Of a stretch of 44,721 nucleotides of DNA, positions 205-43,945 are shown in pieces. The DNA is from Prevotella sp. (lineage in GTDB: Bacteria; Bacteroidota; Bacteroidia; Bacteroidales; Bacteroidaceae). The stretch is taken from contig JAFVHN010000090.1 of NCBI GenBank assembly GCA_017474515.1, positions 1-44,721 on the forward strand. Reading direction: 5' to 3'. The notes beneath the pieces were generated by a model. That model had not been told where the DNA came from, did not search any database, and saw only the letters and a list, made by a program, of their open reading frames with translations. The position numbers were made by a program, and so were the translations under genes. The stretch's first letter is position 1; every line of letters starts with the position of its first letter.

Positions 205-475
205 TTGCGACGGGTAACGGAGCAGGTAAAAATAGTAAAAAATATTGACAAAATGTACAATTTTCTACAATATTTGTAATTCGCTGAATATCAGGGGGTT
301 GAAAATCTCCGTTGGTTTGACCGCAAATTTCGGGTAGAAAAATGGCAGTTTGAGGGGAGAGAATTTGCAAATCTCTCCCCTCAATTTGCGGTCAAACCTT
401 TTGGAGCAACCCAAAAACCATGAAAAATTTTGACAAAATGGAGCTTTTGCGCAGAGCCAAATGACGAAGACTAAT
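205..475 (-). repeat. Dispersed palindromic element, copy A
   Basis: One of six copies of the same intergenic element. The 83-bp core is 315-397, with arms GTTTGACCGCAAATTT and its complement. A second internal palindrome (GAGGGGAGAG...CTCTCCCCTC) sits inside the core. Flanks are TTGACAAAA at about 246, TATCA 21 bases before the core, and GAAAAATTTTGACAAAA 24 bases after it. The asymmetric mark TTGAG is at core offset 36-40, so the core is in the reverse sense. The copy lies between the 3' end of the partial gene and the 3' end of the alcohol dehydrogenase. Outer limits are approximate. Confidence 0.85.
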
Positions 476-538
476 AAGCCTTTTCGATGCCTCAAAAAGC
501 GAGGTCTTCAATATAAGAAAAGATATAGGAGTTCGGGG

Positions 539-585
539 TAAAGAAAACCGTTCTCAACAAGAAATCCATCTTGCTGAGAACGGTT
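539..585 (-). terminator. Terminator of the alcohol dehydrogenase gene
   Basis: The stem AACCGTTCTCA (546-556) pairs with TGAGAACGGTT (575-585), with further pairing inside the loop. On the minus strand it is followed by TTTTCTTT. It lies 18 bases beyond the stop of the minus-strand gene. Confidence 0.7.
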
Positions 586-602
586 GATGACTATTGCCAG
601 AA

Positions 603-1787
603 TCAATGGTTGGCCATGCGGTAGATTTCGGCCATCTGGTCGGGCCCGAGCACTTCAAGGGCGCCCACGGTGATGGTCTTTCCGCGGCTGCATTTATCTA
701 CGAGCACGCCGATTTCATCCTCGCTGATGGTGCGGCCCAATAGCTCGCCGATGGTGGTGGGCATGCCGATGGCGCGGTAGAACGTCTCCATGGCCTCGAT
801 GCCCTTTTCGGCGGTGCGCAGGGGATTGGTGAAGTCGTTCTCCACGCCCATCACGTTGACGGCGAAACGTTGGAACCTCTCCACATGGTTTTTCAGCACG
901 AAGCGTGCCCACGAGGGCCAGATGGCTGCCAGTCCGGCGCCGTGGGTCACGCCATAGACGGCGCTCAGCTCATGCTCCAGGCGGTGGGTGGCGAAGTCCT
1001 TGCCCAGCCCGCACTCCATGAGATTGTTGTGAGAGAGGCTGCCGGCCCACATGATTTGTGCGCGGTGACGGTAATCCTCGGGATTGCGGAGCACCTCGAA
1101 GGCACTGTCTTTCACCGTGCGCATCAACGCCTCGGCCAGGGCGTCGGTGAGCGTCATGTCCTGCTGGGGGGTGAAATAACGCTCCATGGTGTGCATCATG
1201 ATGTCGGTGGCACCGGCGGCTGTCTGGTATTCGGGCAGGGTGAAGGTGCGCTCGGGGTTCATCACGGCAAAGCGGCAACGACACAGGTCACTGTTGATGC
1301 CGCGCTTGTTCTTGTCTTCATCGCGGGTGATGACGCAGCTGTCGCTCATCTCACTTCCGGCGGCGGGGATGGTGAGCACGCAACCCACGGGAATGGAGTC
1401 TTGCGGCACGGCCTTTCCGGCCCAGAAGTCCCATACGTCGCCGTCGTAGCAAAGTCCGTAGGCGATGGCTTTCGACGAGTCGATGACGCTGCCGCCTCCA
1501 ACGGCAAGAATGAAGTCCACACCCTCGCGACGGCACAGGGCGATGCCCTCTTTCACTTTAGAGAGCAGCGGATTGGGCACCACGCCGCCCAGCTCGACAA
1601 AGGGGATGCCGGCCTCGGTGAGCAGGCGGAACATCTTGTCGAGCAGGCCGGAACGACGGGCACTGCCGCCGCCATAGTGTACAAGCACTTTTGTGCCGCC
1701 CCAGCGCTTGATGAGGGCGGGCACTTTTTCTTCACTTTGTCGTCCGAACACTACCTGAGTGGGACTATAGAAATTAAAATCGTTCAT
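603..1787 (-). CDS. Iron-containing alcohol dehydrogenase (YqhD/BdhA type)
   Basis: A 394-residue group III, metal-dependent, NAD(P)H-linked alcohol dehydrogenase, which would interconvert aldehydes and alcohols in the cytoplasm. The nucleotide-binding GGGSVIDSSK is at 97-106. The metal ligands line up with those of E. coli YqhD: D195, H199, H268 and H282, shifted by one residue. Length matches YqhD/butanol dehydrogenases. The start MNDFNFYSPTQVVFG is the usual N-terminus of the family. Its own terminator lies downstream. The 92-base gap to the upstream FAD/Fe-S oxidoreductase on the same strand shows no terminator, so co-transcription is possible. The physiological substrate cannot be told from sequence. 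Confidence 0.9.
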   Translation of the reverse strand: MNDFNFYSPTQVVFGRQSEEKVPALIKRWGGTKVLVHYGGGSARRSGLLDKMFRLLTEAGIPFVELGGVVPNPLLSKVKEGIALCRREGVDFILAVGGGSVIDSSKAIAYGLCYDGDVWDFWAGKAVPQDSIPVGCVLTIPAAGSEMSDSCVITRDEDKNKRGINSDLCRCRFAVMNPERTFTLPEYQTAAGATDIMMHTMERYFTPQQDMTLTDALAEALMRTVKDSAFEVLRNPEDYRHRAQIMWAGSLSHNNLMECGLGKDFATHRLEHELSAVYGVTHGAGLAAIWPSWARFVLKNHVERFQRFAVNVMGVENDFTNPLRTAEKGIEAMETFYRAIGMPTTIGELLGRTISEDEIGVLVDKCSRGKTITVGALEVLGPDQMAEIYRMANH

Positions 1788-1879
1788 GTCCTATTATTCA
1801 AATTAGTTTCAAAAAAACAATGTCAATGATGATTGCTCACTTATATGAATTTATTTGGAAAAAACATGTAAAGGGACGG

Positions 1880-4800
1880 TCAACGCGCCTTGGGCGTGGT
1901 ACATTCGTTCACCAGGTACACGATGCTCATGTATGGAATGCCGGTGTTTGTCTGGAGGCCGATCTCGCAAGTGCGGCTATTGGAGTAGCCCACTTCAATA
2001 TGGTTCTGCTCGATTTGCGGGCGCAACTTGCGGAGCGCGTACTCGTTGACCTCGGGGAAGGTGAAGCCTCGGTCGCCGGCAAACCCGCAGCACCCCACTC
2101 CCTCGGGCAGGAAGACATTGTTGCTACACATTCGGGCAAGGGCCATGAGCTGGTCCGACACGCCCATCTCGCGTGTGGAGCAAGTCAGGTGAATGGCTAT
2201 GCGGCGGTCGATGGGATGGAAGTCGAGGCGGTCCTTCAGATAAGTCATAATGAACTCGGCAGGCTCGTAGAGCTTCATCTTCGTGATGACCTTCTTCATG
2301 CGGTGCAGGCAGGGGCTCTGGTCGCAGAGCACGGGGTATCGCCCTTCGCCGCTGGCCTTCCACAAGGCCTCTTCCAACTCGGCACTCTTGCGGTCGGCAA
2401 TGTCGAGCATGCCCTTGCTTTCCCAAATCTGTCCGCAACACATCTTGTCCATTCCCTCGGGGAAGATGACCTCATAGCCGGCCTTGTTGAGCAGGTGACA
2501 CATGTCATCGACGAGCGATTTCTTGACCGGTGCACCCTTTGCCAGTCCCATGGTCTGGTTGATACAACTGGGGAAATACACCACCTTGAGGTCCTCCTGA
2601 GCGGCGGTTCCTATGTGAGCGCCGGGCTTGGGCTGGCTGAATTTCTTCGGCATGGCGGTTGTCCACAGGGGCAACCCCATCTTGTTCATGCCGCGACACA
2701 CGCTTGTCATGACCGATGAGCCGAGCACGCTGTGCCCGAGGTTGGCTACGCCGAGCACCATTCTCAATCCGCTCTTGATGCCGGCCATGTGGTTGGCGGC
2801 AAATTCGCCGGCCTTGTAGCCCGTGGGACTGTCGAGCATGTCCATCTGCCTGATGAGGTGCGTAAGCTCGCCGGTGTTGATTTTCATGGGACAAGAGGTT
2901 GAGCAGAGACCGTCGGTGGCGCAGGTCTGGTCGCCGTAGTATTTGTATTGCTTCTTCAACGTGGCCACGCGTTCGGGGTTCTTTCCGCTGGCCTCCAGGT
3001 CGCGTATCTCGCGTTGTATGGCAATGCGCATCCTCGACGAGAGGGTGAGTCCGCACGACACGCAGTTGACCTCGCAAAATCCGCACTCTATGCACTTGTT
3101 GGCGCGCTTGACGGCCTCGATGGTCTCGCGGGCGGTCGAGGTGTGCCCGTCGCGGAAATAGTGTCCGCCGTCGGGCACTTTGTCGAAGGCGTAGTCGAGC
3201 ACGGGCAGCGGTTTGAGGCACTTGATGAAGCACTCAGGGTCGTCGTTGAAGATAACGCCCTGGTTGAGCAGGTTGTCGGGGTCGAAAATCTGCTTCAGCT
3301 CCTTCATGGCCTCGTAGGCCTTCTCGCGCCATTCATATTTCACGAAGGGAGCCATGTTGCGTCCGGTGCCGTGCTCAGCCTTCAGCGAGCCGTCGTATTC
3401 TTCCACCACAAGGCGTGCCACGGCCCTCATCATCTCCTCGTAGCGGCGAACCTCGCTCTCGCTCTTGAAGCTCTGGTTGAGGATGAAATGGTAGTTGCCC
3501 TCGAAGGCATGGCCGTAGATGCAGGCGTCGGAATATCCGTGGTCGGCAATGAGTTTCTGCAACTTCACCGTGGCCTCGGGCAGGTCCTCAATGTGGAATG
3601 CCACGTCCTCGATGAGGCACGACGTTCCCACGGGCCGCGTGCCGCCCACGCTGGGGAAGATGCCCGAGCGTATGGCCCAGTATTTTCCATAAACGGCGGG
3701 GTCTTCGGTAAACTCGGCGGGGATGTATAGGCGGAACTGCTTCAGGCAATCCTGAATGGTGGCAATCTTCTGGAGCAACTGCTCGTGGGTGATGCCCTTG
3801 GTTTCGGTCAGAATGGCGGTCAGGTTGTGGTAGTCGCCGGGCTTCACGCCGGCAATCTTGCCCGCGTCAACGTCTTTCTTATATTGCAGGAAGACGGGGT
3901 CGTCAACCGAATTGAGCGACATGTAGTCGAGCATCTCGGCACTCTTCACCACCAGGTTTTCGGCGCTCATCTTCAGGTCCTCGTCGCCCGACTTTAGTTT
4001 CTTCATGGCCACCACGGCCTCGCAACTTTCCTTCATGGTGAGGAAATAGACCATGGCCGATGCCTTGTAGCGATAGTCGCGCAGCGTCTTCATGGTCACC
4101 TCAGAGAGGAATGCCAGGGTGCCCTCAGAGCCCACCATGCAATGGGCCATGATGTCGAAGGGGTCGTCGTAGGCGATGAGCGGCCGCAGGTTGAGGCCGG
4201 TGACGTTCTTGATGCTGTACTTGGTGCGTATGCGGTCGGCCAGTTCCTTGTCGGCCCTGACGCGGTCGCGCAACTCCTCAATGCGGCGGATGAAGTCGGG
4301 ATGCGACTGGCGGAAGCGTGCACGGCTCTCCTCGTCGCCGGTGTCAACGATGGTGCCGTCGGCCAGCACCAGCCGCGCACTCACCATCATGCGGTCGCTA
4401 TTGGCATGCACGCCGCAATTCATGCCCGAGGCATTGTTGATGACAATGCCGCCCACCATGGCACTGCCCACCGATGCGGGGTCGGGCGGGAACACGCGGC
4501 CGTAGGGCTTCAGCACCTCGTTCACGCGGGCGCCGACGATGCCGGGCTGCAGGCGGATGGTTTCCCGGCCGGGGCCAAGCTCGTAGTTCTCCCAATGCTT
4601 GCCGGCAACAATGAGCACGGAGTCGCTGATGCTCTGCCCCGAGAGCGACGTGCCGGCGGCGCGGAAGGTGTAGGGAATCTTGAAGCGGGCACAGGTCTTC
4701 ACAATCTCAGACACCTGGGCCTCGTTGTCGCTTCTAATCACAATTTTCGGAATCAGCCGGTAAAAGCTGGCGTCGGTACCCCAGCCCAGGGTTCTGAGCT

Positions 4801-4906
4801 CGTCGGTATAAATCTGGCGGGGGGGCACAAGTTTTTCCACTTCAGCCAGAAAAGCGGCATAATTGGCCGGAAGATGGTCGGCACTGCGGTTAACGGAATT
4901 TGACAT
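1880..4906 (-). CDS. FAD-linked oxidase with Fe-S and CCG domains (D-2-hydroxyacid dehydrogenase, YdiJ type)
   Basis: A 1,008-residue protein, close to the length of E. coli YdiJ. The N-terminal half is a PCMH-type FAD-binding domain (FRAAGTSLSGQS, then GGIVINNASGMNCG) followed by the FAD-oxidase C-terminal domain (YGHAFEGNYHF, KAEHGTGRN). A ferredoxin-like segment follows, with CIECGFCEVNC and CATDGLCSTSCP. The C-terminus has two CCG (heterodisulfide-reductase-like) units: PSCINQ...CCGQ and LTCSTRE...CCGF. Members oxidise D-lactate, glycolate or D-2-hydroxyglutarate and pass electrons to the respiratory chain. I infer a D-2-hydroxyacid substrate but cannot choose one. A good -7 motif lies 37 bases upstream. 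Confidence 0.9.
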   Translation of the reverse strand: MSNSVNRSADHLPANYAAFLAEVEKLVPPRQIYTDELRTLGWGTDASFYRLIPKIVIRSDNEAQVSEIVKTCARFKIPYTFRAAGTSLSGQSISDSVLIVAGKHWENYELGPGRETIRLQPGIVGARVNEVLKPYGRVFPPDPASVGSAMVGGIVINNASGMNCGVHANSDRMMVSARLVLADGTIVDTGDEESRARFRQSHPDFIRRIEELRDRVRADKELADRIRTKYSIKNVTGLNLRPLIAYDDPFDIMAHCMVGSEGTLAFLSEVTMKTLRDYRYKASAMVYFLTMKESCEAVVAMKKLKSGDEDLKMSAENLVVKSAEMLDYMSLNSVDDPVFLQYKKDVDAGKIAGVKPGDYHNLTAILTETKGITHEQLLQKIATIQDCLKQFRLYIPAEFTEDPAVYGKYWAIRSGIFPSVGGTRPVGTSCLIEDVAFHIEDLPEATVKLQKLIADHGYSDACIYGHAFEGNYHFILNQSFKSESEVRRYEEMMRAVARLVVEEYDGSLKAEHGTGRNMAPFVKYEWREKAYEAMKELKQIFDPDNLLNQGVIFNDDPECFIKCLKPLPVLDYAFDKVPDGGHYFRDGHTSTARETIEAVKRANKCIECGFCEVNCVSCGLTLSSRMRIAIQREIRDLEASGKNPERVATLKKQYKYYGDQTCATDGLCSTSCPMKINTGELTHLIRQMDMLDSPTGYKAGEFAANHMAGIKSGLRMVLGVANLGHSVLGSSVMTSVCRGMNKMGLPLWTTAMPKKFSQPKPGAHIGTAAQEDLKVVYFPSCINQTMGLAKGAPVKKSLVDDMCHLLNKAGYEVIFPEGMDKMCCGQIWESKGMLDIADRKSAELEEALWKASGEGRYPVLCDQSPCLHRMKKVITKMKLYEPAEFIMTYLKDRLDFHPIDRRIAIHLTCSTREMGVSDQLMALARMCSNNVFLPEGVGCCGFAGDRGFTFPEVNEYALRKLRPQIEQNHIEVGYSNSRTCEIGLQTNTGIPYMSIVYLVNECTTPKAR

Positions 4907-4942
4907 GATTGAAAAAAGATTTTGCTATTATATAAGTTTTCG

Positions 4943-4950
4943 CAAAGATA
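4943..4950 (-). promoter_or_regulatory. -7 promoter element of the FAD/Fe-S oxidoreductase gene
   Basis: The minus strand reads TATCTTTG, a perfect match to the Bacteroidota -7 consensus TAnnTTTG, 37 bases before the ATG. No convincing -33 TTTG is visible. Confidence 0.6.
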
Positions 4951-5139
4951 GCACTTTTTTTTCATTCCCGACGAATATTTTGCGTTTTTTTCGTTTTTGG
5001 GAGAAAATAATTGTATTTATTTGTATTTATGGGCTTTTACAAAACGACATCGGGATGCACGGCGATGGATTTCGCCATGCTGCATCCCGGTAATCATGGA
5101 AGCCTGCCAACCCTTCACTTTTTCACGCTATTGGGGTGG

Positions 5140-5372
5140 ATAGTCAGGGGGTGTGGAAATTATGAAAAATCTTGACAAAAGTTCCGATTTTTCGAAACTT
5201 TTGTAACACATTGATTATCAACGGCTTTAAAATCACGGGGAGTTTGACCGCAAATTTCGAGGAGTTTGACCGCAAATTTCTCCTCTCAAACTTCACAATC
5301 TCTCCCCGAAAAATGCGGTCAAACTTTTTTCAAGAAGGAAATTCTTTGAAAAATCTTGACAAAACCGAATGA
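5140..5372 (-). repeat. Dispersed palindromic element, copy B (core inverted relative to flanks)
   Basis: The 83-bp core is 5242-5324. Left flank is GAAAAATCTTGACAAAA (5164-5180) and TTGATTATCA; right flank is GAAAAATCTTGACAAAA at about 5348-5364. The mark CTCAA is at core offset 44-48, so with these flanks the core is flipped relative to copies A, D, E and F. A second arm copy, GTTTGACCGCAAATTTC, begins near 5263 inside the core. The copy lies between the tRNA terminator and the 5' end of the FAD/Fe-S oxidoreductase gene. Confidence 0.85.
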
Positions 5373-5403
5373 AAATATTTTACAAAAAGCGTTCTCCTGA
5401 AAC

Positions 5404-5445
5404 CCAAAAAGGCACCCATCCTGCGGAGAGGAATGGGTGCCTTTT
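5404..5445 (-). terminator. Terminator of the SRP RNA - tRNA unit
   Basis: A perfect 9-bp stem GGCACCCAT (5411-5419) / ATGGGTGCC (5433-5441) is followed on the minus strand by TTTTTGGG. It starts 9 bases after the 3' end of the tRNA. Confidence 0.85.
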
Positions 5446-5449
5446 GGAG

Positions 5450-5523
5450 AGCCTCTTGTCGGATTCGAACCAACGACCCCGAGATTACAAATCACGTGCT
5501 CTGGCCAACTGAGCTAAAGAGGC
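5450..5523 (-). tRNA. tRNA-Thr, anticodon UGU
   Basis: The 74-nt cloverleaf reads on the minus strand: acceptor GCCTCTT/AAGAGGC, D stem GCTC/GAGC, anticodon loop TTTGTAA (anticodon TGT), T stem GTTGG/CCGAC with loop TTCGAAT. The anticodon stem CGTGA/TCTCG contains one T-T mismatch in the middle. CCA is not encoded: the discriminator T is followed by CTCC. The 5' end lies only 4 nt after the SRP RNA, so both probably come from one transcript and RNase P would make the tRNA 5' end. Confidence 0.95.
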
Positions 5524-5527
5524 GGGT

Positions 5528-5622
5528 GGGCAAGCTATCTATATCGCGTCGCTCAACCCACTACCTTTGCTACGTTCCCGTCCTGGAGGATTCGCGGGGA
5601 GCTGACCGTATAGGACTTACCC
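5528..5622 (-). ncRNA. ffs: Signal recognition particle RNA (small bacterial type)
   Basis: The minus strand shows the SRP helix-8 core: GACGGGAACGTAGCAAAGG, with a GGAA tetraloop closed by ACG/CGT and the AGCA side. Distal helices GCTC/GAGC and CCC/GGG pair around it. The ends close as GGGTAAG (5622-5616) with CTTGCCC (5534-5528), followed by CTATA/TATAG, which sets the limits at 95 nt. It binds Ffh and guides ribosomes making membrane proteins to FtsY. It has its own -7 motif upstream and runs into tRNA-Thr after 4 nt. Confidence 0.93.
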
Positions 5623-7098: not shown

Positions 7099-7210
7099 GA
7101 TTCTAAAAATTTTGTTGTTTACCTTCAAAACGCCCGCCATCGGGAATACTTGCACCTGAAGCCGCGCTTTAACCTTCGTTAACAACAAAAAGAGGGGCTA
7201 AAAACCTAAT

Positions 7211-7273
7211 TTTTCTAGAAACTCTAGAGAATCTAGAATCTCTAGAAAATCTAGAAAGTCTAAAGAGTCTGGA
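7211..7273. repeat. 9-bp TCTAGA minisatellite, intergenic locus
   Basis: Seven consecutive 9-bp units of the form NNNTCTAGA (ttttctaga, aactctaga, gaatctaga, atctctaga, aaatctaga, then two decayed units). It lies between the vWA gene and the GlsB terminator. The same 9-bp unit on the same strand fills part of the NRPS coding region at 19717-19797. Confidence 0.85.
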
Positions 7274-7274
7274 A

Positions 7275-7316
7275 AAAAAAAGAAAAGGCTTTGTCCGGGT
7301 TGGCCCGGACAAAGCC
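7275..7316 (-). terminator. Terminator of the GlsB-like gene
   Basis: A perfect 13-bp stem GGCTTTGTCCGGG (7287-7299) / CCCGGACAAAGCC (7304-7316) is followed on the minus strand by TTTTCTTTTTTTTTCC. Confidence 0.9.
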
Positions 7317-11237: not shown

Positions 11238-11359
11238 CCCGACCGCCACGGAAGGCACACCCCCCGAAAAACGCTGCCGATGCCGCCACCGCAGAATGCC
11301 GCGGGAAGCCTGTCGAAAAGGTGCTGAAAAGGGTATGAAAAACGCCCTTCGCAGTGCCC

Positions 11360-11592
11360 TATTTCATGCACCCGAAAACCGTAAAAAATCTTTACAAAAA
11401 TGCTGTTTTTTCATCATATTTATAACTCATTGATTATCAGTACACTGAAAAATACCAGATGTTTGACCGCATTTTTCGGGAAGAGATCTTCAAGATTTCT
11501 CCTCTCAAACTGCCAAATTTCTCCCCGAAATTTGCGGTCAAACTTTTTTCAAGCCCTTTTTTTTCTGAAAAATTTTGACAAAACCGTGCCGT
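11360..11592 (-). repeat. Dispersed palindromic element, copy C (core inverted relative to flanks)
   Basis: The 83-bp core is 11461-11543, with arms GTTTGACCGCATTTTTCGGG and CCCCGAAATTTGCGGTCAAAC. TTGATTATCA lies 21 bases before it and GAAAAATTTTGACAAAA about 24 bases after. CTCAA is at core offset 44-48, which with these flanks means a flipped core, as in copy B. The element fills the gap between the acyltransferase and the lipoprotein gene, whose start codon lies just past its right end. Confidence 0.85.
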
Positions 11593-17330: not shown

Positions 17331-20300
17331 AGACCAAACAGTCTTCTGAAATAATCGTTTCCCAGTTCCGGCCACGAAAAGCCTATGGACGACAACCGCT
17401 CCTGTGTGTCAGCCGCCTGCTTTTCCAACAATTTTACTGAACGCAACCACTGCTCTTTCCGGTCTGCTACCGAGGCCAAGAAGTCGAGGCTCATGCCAAG
17501 TGCCGCCTTTTCGGAAGTGGGCGGCAAAGTCGTCATCATGTCAATCAAAGTGGACATGGCGACAGGCCGTGCGCCGGCAAAACGTTCCAACAAGTCCGAC
17601 AATGGCACGAGGGGAAGTCGGCACAACGAAAAAACAGGAGCCCCGCTCTCCTCTGCCGTTGGTGAGAAAGCCTGGCTCGCAAGGAGGCAGATGGCTCGGG
17701 CGAGGCCGTCAACAGGCGAGAAATCAACCTTCAAACCTTTTATCTCTTCGGGAAACACCTTCATGGCGGCCAACAACCGCAAGGAGGCCATGAGCGCATG
17801 ATGATGAGAAGCCTTTTGGAAAATGCCGTCGGAAGCTCGCGGAGCCACCATCCCCGTGCGCACTATCTGCGCCTTTAGGCCGTGGGCAGCGGCATCGCAT
17901 ACCACCTTTTCAGCACGCTGCTTGCTATGAATATATGGATTGACAAAACCCGTTTCAACGCTCAAGGTTGAAATGAACGTCAATCCGCAACCTCTTGAGA
18001 AACAATAATCTGCAATGTTCTTGGTGCCCTTTGTGTTCGTGTCTTCAAGAGCATTCCCCGGCGCATGGAAATTGACATTGGCCGCACAATGGATGCAGTG
18101 AGTCACGGGCAGTGCATCGAGTTGAGGCAAGACGGAACTGTCGGTAATGTCGCCCTCAACCACTGTCACGTTTCGTGGCAATGACCGGCCGAAATAGTAT
18201 TGATAAACCTTCTCAAGACGTTCGCGCCCCCCCCTGCCTTCTTTGTTTCTCACCAGGCAGACAACCTTTGTTTCAGCTGTTTCTGCCAATTCTCTCAGGA
18301 TATGGCTTCCAAGGAAACCCGTGGCACCTGTAAGAAGGAATAATGGTTCGACACAAGCCCCAAGAGCCTCCTTTTTTGGGGAAGCCGCACAAACAATCGG
18401 GATTGGCCTTTCTCCCTCTGAAGACGGGGTGGCGGTTCCAAGCAACTTTGGCGTAGGACGCTGAAACACATCGCCATAGCCGACAGAGATGCCGCATTTC
18501 CTGGCTTCGGCCACCAGCTGCATCACGGTGATTGACGTGCCCCCAAGTTCAAAGAAGTCATCGTCGGGCCCCGTACCTTCCACGTCGAGCACCCGGTCGA
18601 AAAGCCGGCAAAGGGTTGCCACGTCCCCTTCGCTCGCCGTGTCTTTCGGTGACGGGGAAGGCGTTTCGCCCTTGCGCCGACCATCCGCCAAAGAGCATAA
18701 CCGCGAATAATCTATCTTGCCCGAAATCAGGCACGGCAAGGCAGACAGGTGAACGAAAGCCTGTGGCAGGGCGTACGGTGGCAACCACTGCGCCAGACTA
18801 TGGCGGATGTGGGGAAGCGGTTCCGAAGAAGAGGTGGTGTAGAAGGCTGTGACAAGGGTGTTTCCGCTCGATTGCCGAGCCACCACGGCGACATCTTTCA
18901 CCCCTTCAATCTTCATCATAAAATGCTCTGTTTCTGAAAGTTCCAGCCGGTAGCCGTTGCGTTTCACCTGCCGGTCTTCCCTTCCCACGAAGACGAGGTT
19001 GCCCTGCCGGTCCCATTTCACGAGGTCGCCCGTTCGGAACACCCTCATGCCGGTGCACGGGTCGTTCAGGAAATGGCGAGCTGTCAGTTCCTTGGCCTGC
19101 CAGTACCCCAGCGCCGTTTGCACGCCGCCCAACCACAACTCGCCCACAGCTCCCTGTGGCAGCGGTTGTCCGTCGGGGTCCATCACCCATGCCTGAATGC
19201 CCGGCAAGGGCCGCCCTATCGGTATGCTGTCACCGAGAAGTTGTTGTCCACGCGGTATTTCATAGAACGTGGCATCCACCGTACACTCCGTTGGCCCGTA
19301 GGTATTGAAGACCCTGAGGGAGGCCGGAGGACACGAATGGAGCTTTTCACCGCCCAGGCAGATATACTCCATCGACGGCGGCAGGGGCTCGTCCAGCAGC
19401 ATCAGGCCCAGGCGCGTGGTGAAACAGCCGCCCGTCACCCGGTTGTCGCGCAGGAAAACGCGCAGCCCTTCGATGTCGGTGCGCAAGGCTTTAGGAACAA
19501 TCAGCACCGTCCCTCCCACGGTGAGCGCGGGAAAAAGGTCTTCCACCGAGGCATCAAACGAGAAAGGGGAATGGCACGCTATGCGGCTGTGCTCGGTCAG
19601 CCGCCATTCTCGGGCAATGAAATGTACGAAATTGAGCAGGGCGCCCTGCCCGATGACAACACCCTTTGGTTGGCCGGAAGAGCCGGAAGTGTAGATCATA
19701 TAGGCGGGGGGCTTTAGAGATTCTAGATTTTCCAGAGATTCTAGAGATTCTAGAGGCTCTAGATTTTCTAGAGATTCTAGATTATCTAGATTTTCCAGGA
19801 AAGCCGGGGCATTCAGGATTTCGGGTTCTCCGCGGCGAGTGGTCACCACCAGCTTGGCACGGCTGTGGCCCACAATTTCCTTCATTCGCTCAGGAGGCAG
19901 CGAGGGGTCAACGGGCACGTATGCGGCGCCGATGCGCCACAACGCCAGCGCCATGACCACAAACTCCTTTTCGGCATCCATGAGCAGACAAACGAAATGC
20001 CCGGGGCGCACGCCCTGCGAGGCGAGCACGCCGGCCATCTGCCGCGACCGGTTGTCAAGGTCGGCGTAGGTAAGGCTTCCCTTTTCATCAGAGACGGCCA
20101 CCCGCTCAGGAAACCTCTGCGCCTGTTTAAGAATCATCTGGGCAACGGTCGTCGCACGGTCATAGTCAACACTCGGCCCACGCCCCAACGCCTCCAGCCT
20201 CGGCAATTCCTCGGGGGCGACAAGGCTTATCAGCGAACTGCCGGCATGGGGCGAAGCCATCATCTGCAAGGCGCACTGCCTGACCGCCCCGGCAATCATG

Positions 20301-22419: not shown

Positions 22420-22450
22420 GTTTTTTCAATGCTTGTTGGAACCGACACAG

Positions 22451-22913
22451 AGGAGCCGATGCTTAGAAGTTGACGCCTATAGGAGCCGACGCTTAGAAGT
22501 TGACGCCTATAGGAGCCGACGCTTAGAAGTTGACGCCTATAGGAGCCGACGCTTAGAAGTTGACGCCTATAGGAGCCGACGCCTCCGAGCGTCGGCTCCT
22601 AAAGCGTCGGAGTAACTAAAAAAACTCTGAACAATAGTCTCAAGGAAGTCCGACGCTTGGAAGCGTCGGCTCCTAAAGCGTCGGAGTAACTAAAAAACTC
22701 CGAACAACAGTATTAAGTTACTCCGACGCTTGGAAGCGTCGGCTCCTATGGCGTCGGAGTAACTAAAAAACTCCGAACGATGGGGAAAAAAGTTACTCCG
22801 ACGCTTGGAAGCGTCGGCTCCTAATGAGCGGCGGAGTAACTAAAAAACTCCGAACGATGGGAAAAAGTTACTCCGACGCTTGGAAGCGTCGGCTCCTATG
22901 GCGTCGGCTCAAT
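22451..22913. repeat. REP-like array: 30-bp tandem repeat plus ~75-bp palindromic units
   Basis: Between 22451 and 22590 a 30-bp unit (AGGAGCCGACGCTTAGAAGT plus TGACGCCTAT) is repeated about four and a half times. From 22580 to 22910 come four palindromic units of ~70-80 bp containing GACGCTTGGAAGCGTCGGCTCCTA and a linker AGTAACTAAAAAACTCCGAAC. The palindrome GCCGACGCTTGGAAGCGTCGGC is REP-like. The frame across the 30-bp units is open only because 30 is a multiple of three; I do not call a gene. 22914-23023 holds a small palindrome (GGACATAC...GTATGTCC) and nothing else that I recognise. Confidence 0.9.
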
Positions 22914-23023: not shown

Positions 23024-23315
23024 AGGCCGGTGATAATAGCCGCCAACTTTATTATTTTTCATTTAGCGAAGCGCCATCGTTTTGTCAAGATTTTTCATAA
23101 GAAATATCACACCCCAAGAAGTTTGACCGCAAATTTCGGGGAGAAATCTTCAAGATCTCTCCCCTCAATCTTAAAGATCTCTCCTCGAAATTTGCGGTCA
23201 AACCAAATAACATTTGTAAGCCTCTGACATTCAATAACTTGGAAAACATTCGCAAAATCAAGTGGTTTTGTCAAATATTTTTACCAATTTTATCCTATCT
23301 CGTTATCCATCTTTC
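23024..23315 (+). repeat. Dispersed palindromic element, copy D
   Basis: The 83-bp core is 23121-23203. This copy runs opposite to A, B, C and E: TTTTGTCAAGATTTTTCAT lies before the core, then TGACATTCAA and TTTTGTCAAATATTTTTACC after it. It shares about 55 bases of extra left flank (GCCGCC.ACTTTAT.ATTT.TCATTTAGCGAAGCGCC) with copy F. CTCAA is at core offset 44-48. Confidence 0.87.
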
Positions 23316-28555: not shown

Positions 28556-28651
28556 TGGAAGAAAAAAGTAAAAGTGAAAAGTGAAAAATCAGATGGTGTC
28601 AGCAAATTTTTCACTCTTCACTTTTACCTTAATTATTCACTTTTACCTAAA
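28556..28651. repeat. AAGTGAAAA inverted repeat between two TPR genes
   Basis: AAAGTAAAAGTGAAAAGTGAAAAA pairs with the TTTTTCACTCTTCACTTTTACC that follows about 20 bases later, with a further TTCACTTTTACC at the right end. The same unit appears at 41886-41910 and 42179-42200. It can fold as a long AT-rich hairpin in the gyrA transcript. Confidence 0.8.
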
Positions 28652-32629: not shown

Positions 32630-32756
32630 CTGCTTTTTTTTCATTCCTCCAAACAAAGGAGCGCAAACGTGCGTTTTTTTAATTCTTTTTGAGGGTAACG
32701 GGGGCGCACTGGACAAATGAGGGTGAAATAATCTTAAAATTTCGCAAGTTGATGTA

Positions 32757-32792
32757 GTTCGGGAGTTCAGAAGTTCAGACAATAGTCGGGGC
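32757..32792. repeat. Half copy of the GGAGTTYAG hairpin repeat
   Basis: AGTTCGGGAGTTCAGAAGTTCAGACAATAGTC corresponds to one arm of the hairpins at 36123-36237 and 43334-43446. A partial second arm (ATTATTGTCATTTCTGAGG) follows. Another half copy lies near 42100-42125. Confidence 0.65.
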
Positions 32793-32857
32793 ATTATTGT
32801 CATTTCTGAGGGATTGAAAAATCGATAGGGGAAAAGATGTCCGGCTGATTGCAAAAG

Positions 32858-33118
32858 GAAGGGGAAGCTGGTGGATAGTTTTTATGAAAAATTTTGACAA
32901 AATTGGCCATTTTTGCGACCATTTCATAAAGTGTTGAATATCAGAGGATTAAAGAATACGCTTGGTTTGACCGCAAATTTCGGGGAGAGATCTTGAAGAT
33001 TGAGGGGAGAGATCTTGAAGATTTCTCCTCGAAATTTGCGGTCAAACTTCTTGGGGGGTGAAATTTCTTTTGAAAAATCTTGACAAAATGATTGCACAAC
33101 ACTTAAGGAAAAATGATA
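32858..33118 (-). repeat. Dispersed palindromic element, copy E
   Basis: The 83-bp core is 32965-33047, with arms GTTTGACCGCAAATTTCGGGG and its complement and inner doublets AGATCTTGAAGATT. GAAAAATTTTGACAAAA (32885-32901) and TTGAATATCA lie to the left; GAAAAATCTTGACAAAA lies 24 bases after the core. TTGAG is at offset 36-40. It lies between the divergent gyrA and ttcA genes. Confidence 0.87.
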
Positions 33119-33132
33119 AGGGTTACTCTGTC

Positions 33133-33325
33133 TGAGCCGACGCATTAGGAGCCGACGCATTAGGAGCCGACTCGATAGGAGCCGACGCTTTAGGAGCCGA
33201 CGCCTCCGAGCGTCGGAGTAACTAAAAAAACTAACGAAAGTAAGAAAAATAGTCCGACGCTTGGAAGCGTCGGCTCCTAAAAGCGTCGGCTCCTAAAGGC
33301 GTCGGCTCCTATCGAGTCGGTTCCT
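33133..33325. repeat. REP-like array, second locus
   Basis: Several copies of TAGGAGCCGACGC (33143-33205) are followed by CCTCCGAGCGTCGGAGTAACTAAAAAAACT, then GACGCTTGGAAGCGTCGGCTCCTAA and more GCGTCGGCTCCTA copies in the opposite sense, making a large imperfect palindrome. It uses the same unit and linker as the 22451-22913 array. Confidence 0.87.
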
Positions 33326-38602: not shown

Positions 38603-40192
38603 ATGAAACAATTATTCATTGCAGCTACACTATCGCTCTCTTTTGCAGTGCAAATGGCAGCACAGGACGCCACTGTGAACATTCATGTCAACGACGGCAC
38701 TCAGAAAATCCACAAGGAAATCTACGGACAGTTTGCTGAGCACCTCGGCACCTGTATCTACGGCGGCCTCTGGGTGGGCGAAAACTCTCCCATTCCCAAC
38801 ACCAACGGCTACCGTAACGACGTGCTACAGGCATTGAAAGACCTGAAGGTGCCCGTGCTGAGATGGCCGGGCGGATGCTTCGCCGACGAGTATCACTGGA
38901 TGGACGGCATCGGTCCCAAGAACCAGCGTCCGAAGATGCAAAACAACAACTGGGGCGGAACCATTGAGGACAACTCCTTCGGCACCCACGAATTTCTCAA
39001 CCTCTGCGAATTGCTGGGATGCGAGCCCTATATCAGCGGAAACGTGGGCTCAGGAACCGTTGAGGAACTGGCAAAATGGGTGGAATACATGACCAGCGAC
39101 GGCGACACTCCCATGGCCAAGCTGCGCCGGCAAAACGGCCGCGACAAGGCGTGGAAGGTGAAGTTCCTCGGCGTAGGCAACGAGTCGTGGGGATGCGGCG
39201 GAAACATGAGGCCCGAATACTACGGCGACCTCTTCAGGCGTTACTCCGTCTATTGCCGCAACTACGACGGAAACCAGCTCTACAAGATAGCCTCGGGCGC
39301 CAGCGACTACGACTACAACTGGACAAAAGTGCTGATGAACAACGTTGGCAACCTCATGAACGGCGTGTCGCTCCACTACTACACCGTATCGGGATGGGAC
39401 GGCTCGAAAGGCTCCGCCACGAAGTTCGACGACAACCAGTACTACTGGACCCTCGGCAAATGCCTCGAGATTGAAGATGTACTCAAGAGGCACTGCGCCA
39501 TCATGGACGAGAAAGACCCGAAAAAGAACATCGGACTGCTCCTCGACGAATGGGGCACATGGTGGGACGAGGAGCCCGGCACCGTAAGGGGGCACCTCTA
39601 CCAGCAGAATGCCATGCGCGACGCCATGGTGGCCGCCCTCTCGCTCAACGTGTTCCACAAATACACCGACCGCCTGCGCATGGCCAACATCGCCCAGGTG
39701 GTGAACGTGCTGCAGTCGATGATTCTCACCGACACAAAGGGCACCGGCCACATGGTGCTCACCCCCACCTACCATGTGTTTGAAATGTACAAGCCCTTCC
39801 AGGATGCCACCTTCCTGCCCTTCGACCTGTCGTGCGAGAAGCGCAAGGTGCGCCACGACATGAACAAGGAGATGGACGAGTCCACCGCCGAAGGCTTCCG
39901 CACCCTGCCCCTGGTGAGCGCCAGTGCCGCCAAGACTGCCGACGGCACCGTCGTCATCTCGCTGGCCAACGTGAGCCTCGACAAGAAAAAGGAAGTGGAA
40001 ATCAACATCGACGACCTGAAGGCCAAGAACGTCAGCGGACGCATTCTCACGAGCAAGAACGTTGCCGACTACAACGACTTCGACAACCCCTCCCGCGTGA
40101 AGCCCGAACCCTTCAAGGACGCCAAGCTGAAGAAAGGAAAGCTCACCGTCAACCTTCCCGCAAAGAGCATCGTGGTGCTTGAGCTGAAGTAA
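38603..40192 (+). CDS. Exported alpha-L-arabinofuranosidase, glycoside hydrolase family 51
   Basis: 529 residues with a Sec signal (MKQLFIAATLSLSFAVQMAAQ). Family hallmarks: IYGQFAEHLG, VLRWPGGCFADEYHW, the acid/base E194 in GVGNESWGCGG and the nucleophile E316 in LLLDEWGTWW. The C-terminal beta-sandwich (VVISLANVSLDKKKEVEINI ... LTVNLPAKSIVVLEL) is complete. It releases L-arabinose from arabinan or arabinoxylan. Export suggests periplasmic action on imported oligosaccharides. Closed by a strong terminator; 57 bases separate it from the upstream TPR gene, with no promoter that I trust. Confidence 0.95.
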   Translation: MKQLFIAATLSLSFAVQMAAQDATVNIHVNDGTQKIHKEIYGQFAEHLGTCIYGGLWVGENSPIPNTNGYRNDVLQALKDLKVPVLRWPGGCFADEYHWMDGIGPKNQRPKMQNNNWGGTIEDNSFGTHEFLNLCELLGCEPYISGNVGSGTVEELAKWVEYMTSDGDTPMAKLRRQNGRDKAWKVKFLGVGNESWGCGGNMRPEYYGDLFRRYSVYCRNYDGNQLYKIASGASDYDYNWTKVLMNNVGNLMNGVSLHYYTVSGWDGSKGSATKFDDNQYYWTLGKCLEIEDVLKRHCAIMDEKDPKKNIGLLLDEWGTWWDEEPGTVRGHLYQQNAMRDAMVAALSLNVFHKYTDRLRMANIAQVVNVLQSMILTDTKGTGHMVLTPTYHVFEMYKPFQDATFLPFDLSCEKRKVRHDMNKEMDESTAEGFRTLPLVSASAAKTADGTVVISLANVSLDKKKEVEINIDDLKAKNVSGRILTSKNVADYNDFDNPSRVKPEPFKDAKLKKGKLTVNLPAKSIVVLELK

Positions 40193-40217
40193 GCGCCCTC
40201 ACCCTTTCAACCCACCA

Positions 40218-40267
40218 GAGCCGGAACAACCGTGATGCCCCGTCACGGCTGTTCCGGCTCTCTTTTT
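40218..40267 (+). terminator. Terminator of the GH51 gene
   Basis: The stem GAGCCGGAACAACCGTGA (40218-40235) pairs with TCACGG.TGTTCCGGCTC (40243-40260, one mismatch) and is followed by TCTTTTTC. Confidence 0.92.
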
Positions 40268-40354
40268 CACCCTCCGCCAAACCACGCCAACCCCTATGAA
40301 AACCTTTACGTTAAATTATTGCAGGTGATTGTTCCGCCATCGGCAAATTTTAGC

Positions 40355-40362
40355 TATCTTTG
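40355..40362 (+). promoter_or_regulatory. -7 promoter element of uxaB
   Basis: TATCTTTG, a perfect TAnnTTTG, 38 bases before the ATG; TTG at 40329-40331 may be the -33 element. Confidence 0.65.
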
Positions 40363-40400
40363 CAAACGAAATCAATCTATTAAAATAAATATCAAAAATC

Positions 40401-41879
40401 ATGAAGAAATTGCAAGCTTTAAACAAGCAGACCGCTCCGAAGAGCGTGATGCCCGAAAGGATTATCCAATTTGGCGAAGGAAACTTCCTCCGCGCTTTCA
40501 TCGACTGGATTGTCTGGAACATGGATGCCAAGACCAACTTCAACGGCTCCGTGGTCGTGGTTCAGCCCATTGAGCGTGGCATGGTTGATTGGCTCAACGG
40601 CCAAGACTGCCTCTACCACGTCAACCTGCAGGGCCGCTTGAACGGCGAGGCCGTGAACTCGCTGGAGCGTATCGACGTCATCAGCCGCGCCCTCAACCCC
40701 TACAGCCAGAACGCCGCCTTTATGGCCCTGGCCGAGCAACCCGAGATTCGCTTCGTCATCTCCAACACCACCGAGGCCGGCATTGCCTTCGACCCCGCCT
40801 GCAAGTTCAACGACGCCCCGGCAAGCAGCTATCCCGGCAAGCTCGTCCAGCTGCTCTACCGCCGTTTCAAGACCTTCGACGGCGACCCCAAGAAGGGCCT
40901 CATCATCATGCCTTGCGAGCTGATTTTCCTCAACGGACACCACCTCAAGGAGTGCATCTACAAATACATTGAGCTCTGGAAAGAAGACCTCGGCAACGAC
41001 TACGAGGCTTTCAAGGAGTGGTTCACCAAGTACAACTATGTGTGCGCCACCCTCGTTGACCGCATCGTGCCCGGATTCCCGCGCAAGGAGATTGCCGACA
41101 TCCAGCAGAAAATCGGCTACAAGGACGACCTCGTCGTGCAGGCTGAAATCTTCCACCTCTGGGTCATCGAGAAGCCCGAGAACATGAGCATCGACGAGCT
41201 GCGCGAAGAGTTCCCCGCCGAGAAGGCCGGCCTCCACGTTCTCATTGCCGAGAGCGAAAAGCCCTACCACGAGCGCAAGGTGACGCTGCTTAACGGCCCG
41301 CACACCGTGCTCTCGCCCGTCTCCTTCCTCAGCGGCGTGAACATCGTGCGCGACGCCTGCAACCACGAGGTGCTGGGCAAGTACATTCACAAAGTGCAGT
41401 TCGAGGAACTCATGGAAACGCTCAACCTCCCCATGGACGAGCTGCGCCAGTTTGCCGGCGACGTGCTCGAGCGCTTCAACAACCCCTACGTTGACCATCA
41501 GGTGACGAGCATCATGCTCAACTCGTTCCCGAAGTTCCAGGCCCGCGACCTCCCCGGCGTGAAGACTTTCCTGGAGCGCAAGGGCGAACTGCCCCAGGGA
41601 CTGGTGTTCGGACTGGCTGCCATCATCACCTACTACAAGGGTGGCAAGCGCGAGGACGGCACAGAAATCGTTCCCAACGACGATGTCAAGATCATGGACC
41701 TGCTGAAGGAACTCTGGGCCACCGGCGACACGCAAAAGGTCACCGACGGCGTGCTTTCGGCCGACTTCATCTGGGGCGAAGACCTTCACAACGTGAAAGG
41801 CCTGGCCGAGCTGGTGAAGAAAGACCTCGACCTCATTCAGGAGAAGGGCATGCTCGAGGCCGTGAAGACCATTCTCTAA
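40401..41879 (+). CDS. uxaB: Tagaturonate reductase (altronate oxidoreductase)
   Basis: 492 residues of the mannitol dehydrogenase superfamily. N-terminal Rossmann start RIIQFGEGNFLRAFIDW, then the UxaB-type VVQPIERGM and NTTEAGIAFD, the conserved LPCEL-like IIMPCELIFLNG, TLVDRIVPGFPR, and the catalytic-region KVTLLNGPHTVLSP, containing the invariant Lys and Asn-Gly-x-His. It reduces D-tagaturonate to D-altronate with NADH in galacturonate breakdown, which fits pectin use. Length agrees with E. coli UxaB (483). The gene has its own promoter and terminator; the other galacturonate genes are not in the window. Confidence 0.93.
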   Translation: MKKLQALNKQTAPKSVMPERIIQFGEGNFLRAFIDWIVWNMDAKTNFNGSVVVVQPIERGMVDWLNGQDCLYHVNLQGRLNGEAVNSLERIDVISRALNPYSQNAAFMALAEQPEIRFVISNTTEAGIAFDPACKFNDAPASSYPGKLVQLLYRRFKTFDGDPKKGLIIMPCELIFLNGHHLKECIYKYIELWKEDLGNDYEAFKEWFTKYNYVCATLVDRIVPGFPRKEIADIQQKIGYKDDLVVQAEIFHLWVIEKPENMSIDELREEFPAEKAGLHVLIAESEKPYHERKVTLLNGPHTVLSPVSFLSGVNIVRDACNHEVLGKYIHKVQFEELMETLNLPMDELRQFAGDVLERFNNPYVDHQVTSIMLNSFPKFQARDLPGVKTFLERKGELPQGLVFGLAAIITYYKGGKREDGTEIVPNDDVKIMDLLKELWATGDTQKVTDGVLSADFIWGEDLHNVKGLAELVKKDLDLIQEKGMLEAVKTIL

Positions 41880-41883
41880 GGGA

Positions 41884-42205
41884 AAAGGTAAAAGTGAAAA
41901 GTGAAAAATTTGCTGCCGCCATCCCGCCTCATGTAGGGACGTGATATACCACGTCCGCAAGCGCAAATGACGAGAGTAAAAGCAATAAAAAAGCTGCCGA
42001 TAGCTGAATATCGGCAGCTTTTTTTATGCTATTTTCGTATTGACGTATGGCGATAATCACCCACGGCCTATGGCCAATGCCCTGTAGTTCGCTCACTGAG
42101 AGTTCAAAAGTTCTGACGATAGTTCTATAAAACTCCATTCATTCCCCAAGGAACCATCGTTGTAGGTCCGGTAGGAAATTCTTCACTTTTCACTCTTCAC
42201 TTAAA
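41884..42205. repeat. Intergenic patch of AAGTGAAAA arms and repeat fragments
   Basis: AAAAGGTAAAAGTGAAAAGTGAAAAA at the left and TTCACTTTTCACTCTTCACTT at the right form distant inverted arms about 270 bases apart. Between them are a GTAGGGACGTG...CACGTCC palindrome (41934-41957), the terminator at 41987-42024 and a half GGAGTTYAG unit near 42100. No gene is supported here. Confidence 0.7.
41987..42024 (+). terminator. Two-way terminator between uxaB and the epimerase homologue
   Basis: A perfect 16-bp stem AAAAAAGCTGCCGATA (41987-42002) / TATCGGCAGCTTTTTT (42009-42024) with T and A tracts on both sides. It can stop uxaB (plus) and the minus-strand gene. Confidence 0.92.
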
Positions 42206-42208
42206 TAA

Positions 42209-43279
42209 TCAACCTAAAATGCGCAAAATGCGCTCTGCCGTCCTGCCGTCCCAACGGTCAGGCAGGGCGCTTTTTTTCCACCTGCCCGCCACCATGTCGG
42301 CCATGGCATCAGCCAGCTGCCCGGCATCCTCGCCAACGAGCACGTTGGTGCCCACCTTCACGGTTTCTATATGCTCGGTATAGCTGTTGAGCGTGATGCA
42401 CGGCACACTGTTGAACGTGGCTTCCTCGGCCACGTTGCCGCTGTCGGTAACGATGCCGCAGGCGTGCGCGGCCAGCCATCCGAACTCCAGGTAGGGCAAG
42501 GGAGCCACGGCATGGAAGGCCGGGCAGCTGCCCACACAGTCCTCAACAGCCCGGCGGGCACCCTCGCGCAACGGTGCCACCAGGGGCACGCCGCCGAGGT
42601 TGGCGGTCATGGCGGCCACCAGCGGCTCCAGCTTCCCGCGGTCGTCGATGAGGGCGCGGCGGTTGAGCGTGAAAAGAACATAGCGGCCCTCCTGCAGGCC
42701 CAGGCTGTCCATCAATGCCGGACGCCGCCAGCGGTTGCGGTTATAGCGCAGGTTGTCTATCAAGATGTTGCCAACCATATAGACGCGGCTTCCCTCGGCA
42801 CCCTCGCGGCTGGTGATGGTGCTGGCACCCTGGCCGGCGGTGAAGAGCAGGTCGCTCAGGCCGTCGATGACCAGGCGGTTCACCTCCTTCGGCATGCTGA
42901 TGTCGAAAGAGCGCGTGCCCGCCACGAGGTGCGCCAGGCGGATGCCGCGCTTCTTCGTGACGATGGCCGCCGCCATGGTGCTGGCCAGGTCGTCAACCAC
43001 TATCACCACGTCGGGCATCGACTGCGTGAGATAGGCATCGAAGGCTCCCATCACGCGGCCCGTAATCTCGTTCAGGCTCACGCTGTCCACGCCCAGGAAC
43101 ACCGTGGGGCGCGCTATCTGCAGGTCGTCGAAAAGCGCCGACTCCAGCGTGGGGTCGTCCTCGCAACCGGCATAGACAAGTTCAAAAACAATGTCCGGCT
43201 GCTGGGAGGCAGCACGAATCAGCGGAGCCAGCTTGATGAAATTGGGGCGGGCACCCGCCACCATACATATCTTCGTCAT
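42209..43279 (-). CDS. UDP-GlcNAc 2-epimerase homologue with substituted active site
   Basis: 356 residues, full length for the non-hydrolysing WecB family, and clearly alignable: GARPNFIKLAPL (9-20), SFDxSMPxEVNR (124-135), VGN.LIDNL (169-177), TDSG...EE (278-286) and GTNVLVG (310-316). The catalytic positions known from E. coli WecB are mostly changed: Glu117 is V119 (HLVAGTR for HVEAGLR), Glu131 is K131, and His213 is N206 (TLNRRALIDD for TLHRpsNvDD). The Asp95 equivalent (D97) and Arg135 are kept, but GDxNST has become DDLAST, and the TGQHYD loop is AGCEDD. I expect no normal GlcNAc/ManNAc epimerisation. A diverged enzyme or a non-catalytic role is possible. Confidence 0.85.
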   Translation of the reverse strand: MTKICMVAGARPNFIKLAPLIRAASQQPDIVFELVYAGCEDDPTLESALFDDLQIARPTVFLGVDSVSLNEITGRVMGAFDAYLTQSMPDVVIVVDDLASTMAAAIVTKKRGIRLAHLVAGTRSFDISMPKEVNRLVIDGLSDLLFTAGQGASTITSREGAEGSRVYMVGNILIDNLRYNRNRWRRPALMDSLGLQEGRYVLFTLNRRALIDDRGKLEPLVAAMTANLGGVPLVAPLREGARRAVEDCVGSCPAFHAVAPLPYLEFGWLAAHACGIVTDSGNVAEEATFNSVPCITLNSYTEHIETVKVGTNVLVGEDAGQLADAMADMVAGRWKKSALPDRWDGRTAERILRILG

Positions 43280-43333
43280 TTCCGTTCGGTTAATAAAATA
43301 TATTCATTCAAGTTTCACATTCGCTCAACTTCT

Positions 43334-43446
43334 TGGAGTTCAGGAGTTCAGGAGTTACAGGAGTTCAGACAACAGTTCTGAAGACTCCCTTTTCGTCAGT
43401 TTACAGAGGTTGGAAGTATTGTCTGAACTTCTGAACTCCTGAACTA
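43334..43446. repeat. GGAGTTYAG hairpin repeat upstream of the epimerase homologue
   Basis: GGAGTTCAGGAGTTCAGGAGTTACAGGAGTTCAGACAACAGTT on the left pairs with ATTGTCTGAACTTCTGAACTCCTGAACT on the right. It is the same design as 36123-36237 (repeated arm, GACAA.AGTT, loop, TATTGTC, complementary arm), with C in place of T at the variable position. Confidence 0.85.
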
Positions 43447-43654
43447 CATCAACTTGCGAAAGTTGAGTTATATTCATAATGACCTGCCGCGGGCAAGGCC
43501 CTTCAGACCGGCCGCACGGCGGTTTCTTGTTTGCCATTGCAAATATACACACTTTATTTCAAAAAAGCCCCACCCTGCCCCACTTTTTTTCACAACCGGC
43601 CCCCATGAGGCGTTTCCCAACGTTCATACGCTTTTAGAAACACACTTATTGAAG

Positions 43655-43945
43655 GCCAACGTTGAATATTGCCGCCGACTTTATCATTTATCATTTAGCG
43701 AAGCGCCCTCGTTTTGTCAAGATTTTTCATAACTTTTTGACCCTCCGAAAGAGTTTGACCGCAATTTTCGAGGGGAAATCTTCAAGATTTCTCCCCTCAA
43801 TCTTCAAGATCTCTCCCCGAAATTTGCGGTCAAAAACCAGCCGTTTTAAAACCCACTGATTATCAACGCGTTACAAAACGGCCGAATTTTACGCGATTTT
43901 GTCAAATATTTTTACCGGTTTTACCCCATCCCCTTACCCATTTTT
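43655..43945 (+). repeat. Dispersed palindromic element, copy F
   Basis: The 83-bp core is 43753-43835. TTTTGTCAAGATTTTTCAT lies before it, and CTGATTATCAA then TTTTGTCAAATATTTTTACC lie after it, the same sense as copy D. The extra left flank GCCGCCGACTTTATCATTT...AGCGAAGCGCC is shared with D. CTCAA is at core offset 44-48. Upstream, 43447-43654 holds no gene that I can support. Confidence 0.87.

Follow-up and report, generated by a model that had tools for sequence, protein, structure and literature searches.

A Prevotella genome (GenBank assembly GCA_017474515.1; 118 contigs, 3.51 Mb, 88% complete) carries about 200 copies of a 233-base intergenic element whose sites stand at fixed distances from one another. 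Six of these copies lie in the 44,721-bp stretch analyzed here (contig JAFVHN010000090.1, C15 in our numbering; hereafter, the window). Its probable role is that of a platform for proteins that bend and pair DNA, and with moderate confidence we interpret it as a non-autonomous, dispersed intergenic repeat that has been shaped by a nucleoprotein complex. In this model, an HU/IHF-type protein would bend a palindromic double site on one side of the element, a dimeric protein would bind the units of the adjacent array on one face of the helix, and the resulting complex would be (or would once have been) the substrate for a trans-acting recombinase or transposase that copies the element.

The initial annotation of the window described six cores of 83 bp, and all six are where it placed them (Table 1). 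Its statement that they are all bounded by one sequence and its complement holds in part: the bounding 17-mer is exact at both ends in elements D and E, while one end deviates in A, B, and C and both deviate in F, where one core end reads TTTTGACC. The end motif, GTTTGACCGCANNTTTC, has 351 matches (174 + 177) in the genome at one mismatch or fewer, compared with 0 for the reversed control. Full 83-bp cores, with both ends present and at most one mismatch in all, number 109 in this genome and 0 in 300 other genomes of the family, 21 of which are of the same genus. When two ends 60 to 130 bp apart are paired, allowing up to three mismatches per end, 93 distinct pairings have a length of 83 bp and 3 of 61 bp; the 61-bp pairings are nested within 83-bp cores, and each of three pairings at 139 or 156 bp overlaps an 83-bp core. 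The ungapped profile described below was made from the 83-bp cores only (93 of 96). A profile search of stretches around motif matches then gave 117 copies, all distinct, and the exact 83-bp frame fits 115 of them; the two exceptions, L104 and L115, make up the 2 of 117 copies that do not enter the mispair and frame analyses below. Twenty stretches picked by a flank motif instead of the core end yielded 21 copies, many with a more diverged core, and 19 of these are in the 83-bp frame. The feature first described in the window is real.

Rough estimates from the number of motif matches per copy put the element at about 195 to 245 copies (195 and 245 by the two estimates). The TATCA-anchored matches (119 + 133) allow three mismatches and include opposite core ends, and they are not a copy number. 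The frequency first given, roughly one copy per 7 kb, describes the window (1 per 7.5 kb) but not the genome (about 1 per 14 to 18 kb, from 195 to 245 copies); based on this difference, the window is richer in the element than the genome as a whole.

Read in its own orientation, and with the flanking sites positioned relative to the core, the element consists of an IHF-like palindromic double site (hereafter, the module), 21 bp, the 83-bp array, 23 bp, and the TTGACAAAA motif. An ungapped profile and a 50-copy alignment with few gaps give the layout as GGATAGCG.., then TAAAAAATNTTGACAAAA, then TTTTGTAA-N4-TTGATTATCAA, a spacer, the core, a second spacer, and TGAAAAATCTTGACAAAA. The core is built as 17 + 5 + 17 + 5 + 17 + 5 + 17, i.e., four 17-bp units with 5-bp linkers at a pitch of 22 bp, or about two helical turns. 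Most of the inner units are dyads, either ATCTTSAAGAT or ATTTGSCAAAT, which covary about a single central base (covarying pairs 29/31 and 51/53, with a 1-nt loop). Unit 2 is a repeat of the end motif instead of a dyad in 3 of 93 copies, and it has this form in element B of the window (5264 to 5280). Linker 1 is purine-rich in 102 of 115 copies and linker 3 pyrimidine-rich in 110 of 115; the middle linker can be either (46 and 67 copies, respectively), and therefore the core is present in both orientations relative to its flanks. Nearest neighbors by flank sequence share the orientation of the core in 81 of 113 cases, compared with 52% by chance; this agreement suggests occasional inversion of the core. 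To the right of the core, mean between-copy identity has dropped to background by +124, and to the left it declines more slowly, reaching background near -107. To the right of several copies (e.g., window 43660 to 43712), a GCGCTTCGCTAAATGATAAATGATAAA stretch follows the right end and is perhaps a subfamily extension.

How strict is this geometry? The center of the IHF-like site is at -31 in 107 of 115 copies, elsewhere in 7, and not found in 1. The right motif starts at +106 in 102 copies, at +105 in 6, and at +94 to +96 in 4 (not found in 3), and the left motif is at -77 in 78 copies, at -78 in 33, and at -64 in 1 (not found in 3). Set against the 8 of 115 copies in which the center is displaced or not found, the left spacer shows 812 departures from consensus over 107 copies; the right spacer shows 931 over 103. 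The geometry of the element is constrained in length, as was first proposed from the six copies in the window. It was also proposed that the spacers differ almost completely, and this goes too far: departures amount to 0.36 and 0.39 per site (36 to 39% of letters), and the left spacer contains a conserved TTGAAAAT. Sequence varies more in the spacers than in the sites, but within limits. Similarly, TATCA (TGTCA in D) had been reported at a set place in all six copies; element F has AATCA there when read in the element's own orientation.

The TATCA motif is half of a palindrome that holds two overlapping, inverted matches to the IHF consensus. The consensus that we tested, WATCAANNNNTTR, is a string that occurs in excerpts of published papers. 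With at most one mismatch, it is matched in 82 of 114 copies (81 at one place) versus 5 of 114 after shuffling, and its mirror is matched in 95 of 114 (90 at one place) versus 4 of 114; for this test and that of target duplication, 114 of 115 copies were used, one having a flank that is too short. Based on these consensus matches at a fixed place, we regard the palindromic double site as a candidate IHF-type site. Four HU/IHF-family matches are present in the genome. At G000:C104:32059-32623, two HU/IHF-family matches adjoin each other, one of them within a 481-residue open frame.

None of the 117 copies lies inside a predicted gene (gene positions around the copies come from a home-made gene finder), and convergent, divergent, and tandem gaps are all occupied, which extends to the genome what had been noted for the window. 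Among the 100 copies with both neighbors, 37 are in tandem, 35 in divergent, and 28 in convergent gaps; by subtraction, the other neighboring gene pairs in the same stretches are tandem in 106 of 135 cases. The copies are dispersed, and their surroundings are mostly unrelated. Even the close pair L075/L120, which differs at 10 of 117 positions in the flank and 4 of 83 in the core, sits in different surroundings. The gap that holds element C is bridged by orthologous neighbors in relatives: the matched genes are 113 to 198 bp apart in seven of them (G381, G437, G305, G388, G397, G246, and G425), compared with about 590 bp here, and in these seven gaps neither the module (best 5 to 6 mismatches) nor the core end (5 to 6) was found. 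The corresponding gap in G368 is longer and of other sequence (best module 5, core end 4 mismatches), and the stretch in G387 is not clearly comparable (best 4 and 5 mismatches). The neighbors of the gap upstream of gyrA differ in relatives, and thus no conclusion from synteny is drawn there. The initial annotation, which called for such a comparison of orthologous gaps, argued that recently copied mobile DNA would not look like this; the close pairs in different surroundings and a gap that is short and free of the element in seven relatives leave that argument unsupported. The element had no match in phage and plasmid collections or in IMG/VR, collections that may omit records near the genome of the window.

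Does the same layout occur in other genomes? A profile-model scan of this genome and its relatives, which had also been called for, gave the 117 copies here and a similar layout, with other array letters, in other species. The sequence-only model R1, built from 50 of the 117 copies (51 were selected and L108 was omitted), has matches, mostly weak, in at least 39 other genomes among the 149 of the genus that were scanned; scoring covered 14 candidates in each genome, and such counts are lower bounds. On visual inspection of 29 loci (L156 to L184), roughly 12 had the double site next to short palindromes that recur every 22 bp, in other letters, and P. falsenii locus L308 has the module with a 22-bp array. 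For loci of 6 other genomes that were chosen by the module alone and pooled (18 of 30 loci used, the others being out of the module's register), a lag of 22 is the strongest self-match in the flanks (z = 12.2). At 60 further places, lag 22 comes out on top in G291, G108, and G220 (z = 2.8, 4.0, and 3.5). A strong lag-22 flank, with two flanks considered per copy, is present in 13 of 22 copies in G291, 14 of 20 in G108, 25 of 31 in G220, and 3 of 3 in G092, and the control gave 3 of 240 single stretches of the window's genome. The cross-species profiles took in 22 of 22, 20 of 20, 31 of 32, and 3 of 3 copies; those of G108 and G220 are conserved and ungapped around the module, with a TTKACAAA motif. 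The array of G092, a genome of the same genus, resembles P. vespertina loci L270 and L281.

The module is also enriched over control in a number of genomes of the family, e.g., 200 matches in G029, 119 in G052, and 57 in G092 versus 0 to 1, these being counts of matches, not places, such that a palindromic place may count twice. In G092, 20 of the 57 matches are a single form, TTGATAAATGRTTGATAATCA, one mismatch from the module pattern and perhaps another repeat family. Among the matches listed for named genomes (80 of at least 119 stretches, with no chance control run), the module occurs in Flavobacteriia, Cytophagales, Chitinophagales, and Saprospiraceae and once in an Omnitrophota assembly. 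Because in those genomes there is often no visible array within 130 bp on either side, the module alone may be an older, more general site. Other arrangements were seen as well. The Microscillaceae metagenome-assembled genome Prado074 accounts for 49 of the 80 listed double-site loci, and the five that were read (L246 to L250) have no obvious 22-bp array. In G029 (L219, L225, L231, L237, and L243), a short nested palindrome has a copy of the double site on each side, one of them degenerate in some cases, which makes the layout symmetric. In G305 (L131, 3590 to 3810), inverted arrays of CTGCGTTACC units lie next to TGATAATCA, which is another type of array.

Several other explanations deserve consideration. 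The length constraint and uneven conservation would also fit a set of sites that serve the host, in which copies are kept by selection as chromosome-organizing or gene-boundary sites for an IHF-type and a dimeric nucleoid protein and spread was only the start. The placement between transcription units, with far fewer tandem gaps than among other gene pairs, fits this idea too, although tolerated insertion would yield placement outside operons just as well. Given the restriction of the core to one lineage among the family genomes searched and the gap at C that is empty in seven relatives, we think it unlikely. The core could instead act as a transcribed RNA hairpin (a terminator or a processing or stability element). 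This idea draws on the strong inverted repeats, on the position of copies closer to gene 3' ends (median, 98 bp) than to 5' ends (225 bp), and on outer-pairing mispairs that lean to G-T (102 versus 64 A-C). The inner units make it very improbable: the covarying dyad pairs enclose a 1-nt loop, and the mispairs of unit 2 (62 G-T, 23 A-C) and unit 3 (22 G-T, 74 A-C) are mirror images. Because a single-strand transcript would favor G-T throughout, the mirrored mispairs speak against RNA of one strand, and together with the one-base-centered dyads they indicate double-stranded sites. In addition, 35 of the 100 copies are in divergent gaps, RNAalifold finds only a weak common fold for 93 copies on either strand, and an Rfam search of the window at the gathering score listed SRP RNA and tRNA and no family on any of the six elements. 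Selected structure had first been suggested in two forms, an RNA fold or protein-spaced DNA sites; the latter is the better idea in light of the 22-bp pitch, the dyads, and the IHF-like double site.

Transposition by a known type of enzyme is the other line of explanation. As a classical miniature inverted-repeat transposable element (MITE), the repeat would be an internally deleted insertion sequence moved by the transposase of its parent, and it is indeed short, without a known gene inside, and dispersed, with close pairs in different surroundings. However, it lacks terminal inverted repeats; in the outer 25 bp of 115 copies, the mean longest inverted match is 4.4, compared with 4.1 in shuffled sequence, and the inverted repeats that the element does have are internal. 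There is also no clear target-site duplication (direct repeats of at least 8 bp in 9 of 114 copies against a permutation mean of about 4, with no shared place), although old copies could have lost it, and no partner insertion sequence is known, though none was searched for. We judge a classical MITE to be distinctly improbable. Clusters of apparent target duplications that an offset scan had produced (3 to 4 of 114 copies) were rejected after a per-copy check with permutation, which found no shared place. Least credence goes to a REPIN moved by a RAYT (Y1 transposase), i.e., an inverted pair of one abundant short sequence. The two inverted copies of an abundant 17-mer, the high copy number, and the extragenic placement all recall REPINs, and the genome has one Y1_Tnp match. 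But a different palindrome, GGACATACTTTATGTATGTCC, flanks that single RAYT-like gene (L154, 1354 to 1899; G000:C24), and a search of the gene's 3.3-kb locus with model R1 gave no copy of the element; the RAYT was rejected as the mover on account of the other repeat at its flanks. Palindromes of the GGACATACTTTATGTATGTCC type are found at other places in the genome too, and copies in the two orientations often lie close to each other; the genome thus has a REPIN-like system, though one with its own, different repeat.

We return, then, to our favored reading, in which a nucleoprotein complex has shaped a dispersed, non-autonomous repeat. With a pitch of about two helical turns, the array units would lie on one face of the helix, and an array that tracks changes in its binding protein would be expected to differ in letters between species, as is seen. 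A number of observations count against this interpretation. The lack of terminal inverted repeats and of a clear target duplication burdens it as it burdens a MITE, and no transposase was found with the element. Similarity extends tens of bases past the ends on both sides in L081/L094 and on the right in L075/L120, and the empty-gap comparison covers one place only. Taken singly, the loci of G029, G260, and the first set from G108 do not have lag 22 as the top lag; in loci of three other genera, lag 22 (z = 4.6) is second to lag 5; and the G291 profile shows the module alone, its arrays not being in one register. Finally, the IHF site is a consensus match, and other proteins that bind AT-rich palindromes could fit.

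How does the element compare with known systems? The initial annotation knew of no named element with this layout, and no matching layout in print turned up in the literature that we searched, but by general features there is a close published counterpart, PINSR of Prevotella intermedia. The comparisons that follow draw on portions of the cited papers. PINSR is 188 bp long, with 177 and 184 copies in two strains (PMC4755523). It is described as intergenic, held to be non-coding, limited to one species group, without terminal inverted repeats, and of unknown function and source (PMC4755523). By these general features alone, the element here is alike in being intergenic, high in copy number, lineage-limited, and free of terminal inverted repeats; it differs in length (about 233 bp), and neither an IHF-like site nor a 22-bp array is described for PINSR in the portions used. 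A link to PINSR through the array letters of P. falsenii was tried and dropped. Sites with those letters occur in 27 of 299 genus genomes with at most 15 matches in one, not as a 180-copy repeat, and because of this low copy number the P. falsenii array is not evidently PINSR.

BIME-1/RIB elements of Escherichia coli are pairs of repetitive extragenic palindromes (REPs) with an IHF site between the two REPs (PMC2817692). Our element likewise has inverted palindromes, together with a candidate IHF-type site (a consensus match at a fixed place), whereas it has four units at a 22-bp pitch with the double site outside them, and the RAYT gene of this genome is adjoined by another repeat. REPINs, which are inverted REP pairs tied to RAYTs (PMC3116915), are likewise extragenic inverted pairs of an abundant short sequence; unlike them, the element is not the flanking repeat of this RAYT, is 233 bp long, and has fixed flanking motifs. 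The BrickBuilt MITE of Porphyromonas gingivalis has 19 copies with 1 to 22.8 repeats of 23 nt per element (PMC4596501). It belongs to the same phylum, is intergenic, and has tandem units of about two helical turns along with a leader and a tail, but our element has four linker-separated units at a pitch of 22 in 115 of 117 copies and is present in about 200 copies. The 155-bp form of the Correia element is treated as a MITE, has one internal IHF site, and is almost exclusively intergenic (PMC2229807); like our element with its candidate IHF site, it is a short dispersed repeat, and no 22-bp array is described for it in the portions used. Our best reading is that the element, as a nucleoprotein platform, represents a new variation on the type to which BIME and PINSR belong.

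Table 1. Positions of the six copies of the element in the window
Element	Position	Strand	Core	IHF-like double site	Left motif	Right motif	Remark
A	205..438	+	315-397	272-304		421-438	~233 bp
B	5132..5365	+	5242-5324	5199-5231	5163-5180	5347-5364	
C	11351..11584	+	11461-11543	11418-11450		11566-11583	
D	23080..23313	-	23121-23203	23214-23246		23080-23097	
E	32855..33088	+	32965-33047	32922-32954	32885-32902	33071-33088	upstream of gyrA
F	43712..43945	-	43753-43835	43846-43878		43712-43729	

The window holds other repeats as well. Tandem and inverted GGAGCCGACGCTT / AAGCGTCGGCTCC units make up another intergenic repeat at 22421 to 22910, 33125 to 33323, and 44681 to 44720, and these motifs number 89 (overlaps counted) in the fetched stretches of this genome. 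Nine-base tandem repeats of the CTAGA type lie at 7198 to 7278 and 19706 to 19813, with similar stretches in several relatives. Two distant inverted repeat pairs are found at 32737 to 32784 / 43417 to 43464 (48 nt, 96%) and at 28592 to 28630 / 41885 to 41923 (39 nt, 92%).

More tentatively, and with less confidence than we place in the nucleoprotein reading itself, we posit that Prevotella, and perhaps other Bacteroidota, carry an unrecognized class of dispersed elements in which the architecture, an IHF-type double site beside a dyad array of 22-bp pitch, stays constant while the letters of the array are replaced between lineages, possibly through coevolution with an undiscovered, non-RAYT, sequence-specific recombinase or binding protein. 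The published description of PINSR covers one species group and gives no mechanism. The shared layout, a conserved bend site next to an array whose letters change while its pitch is constant, turns this into a definite and testable model, and it offers a means of searching the phylum for such elements and a starting point for isolating the protein that reads the array.

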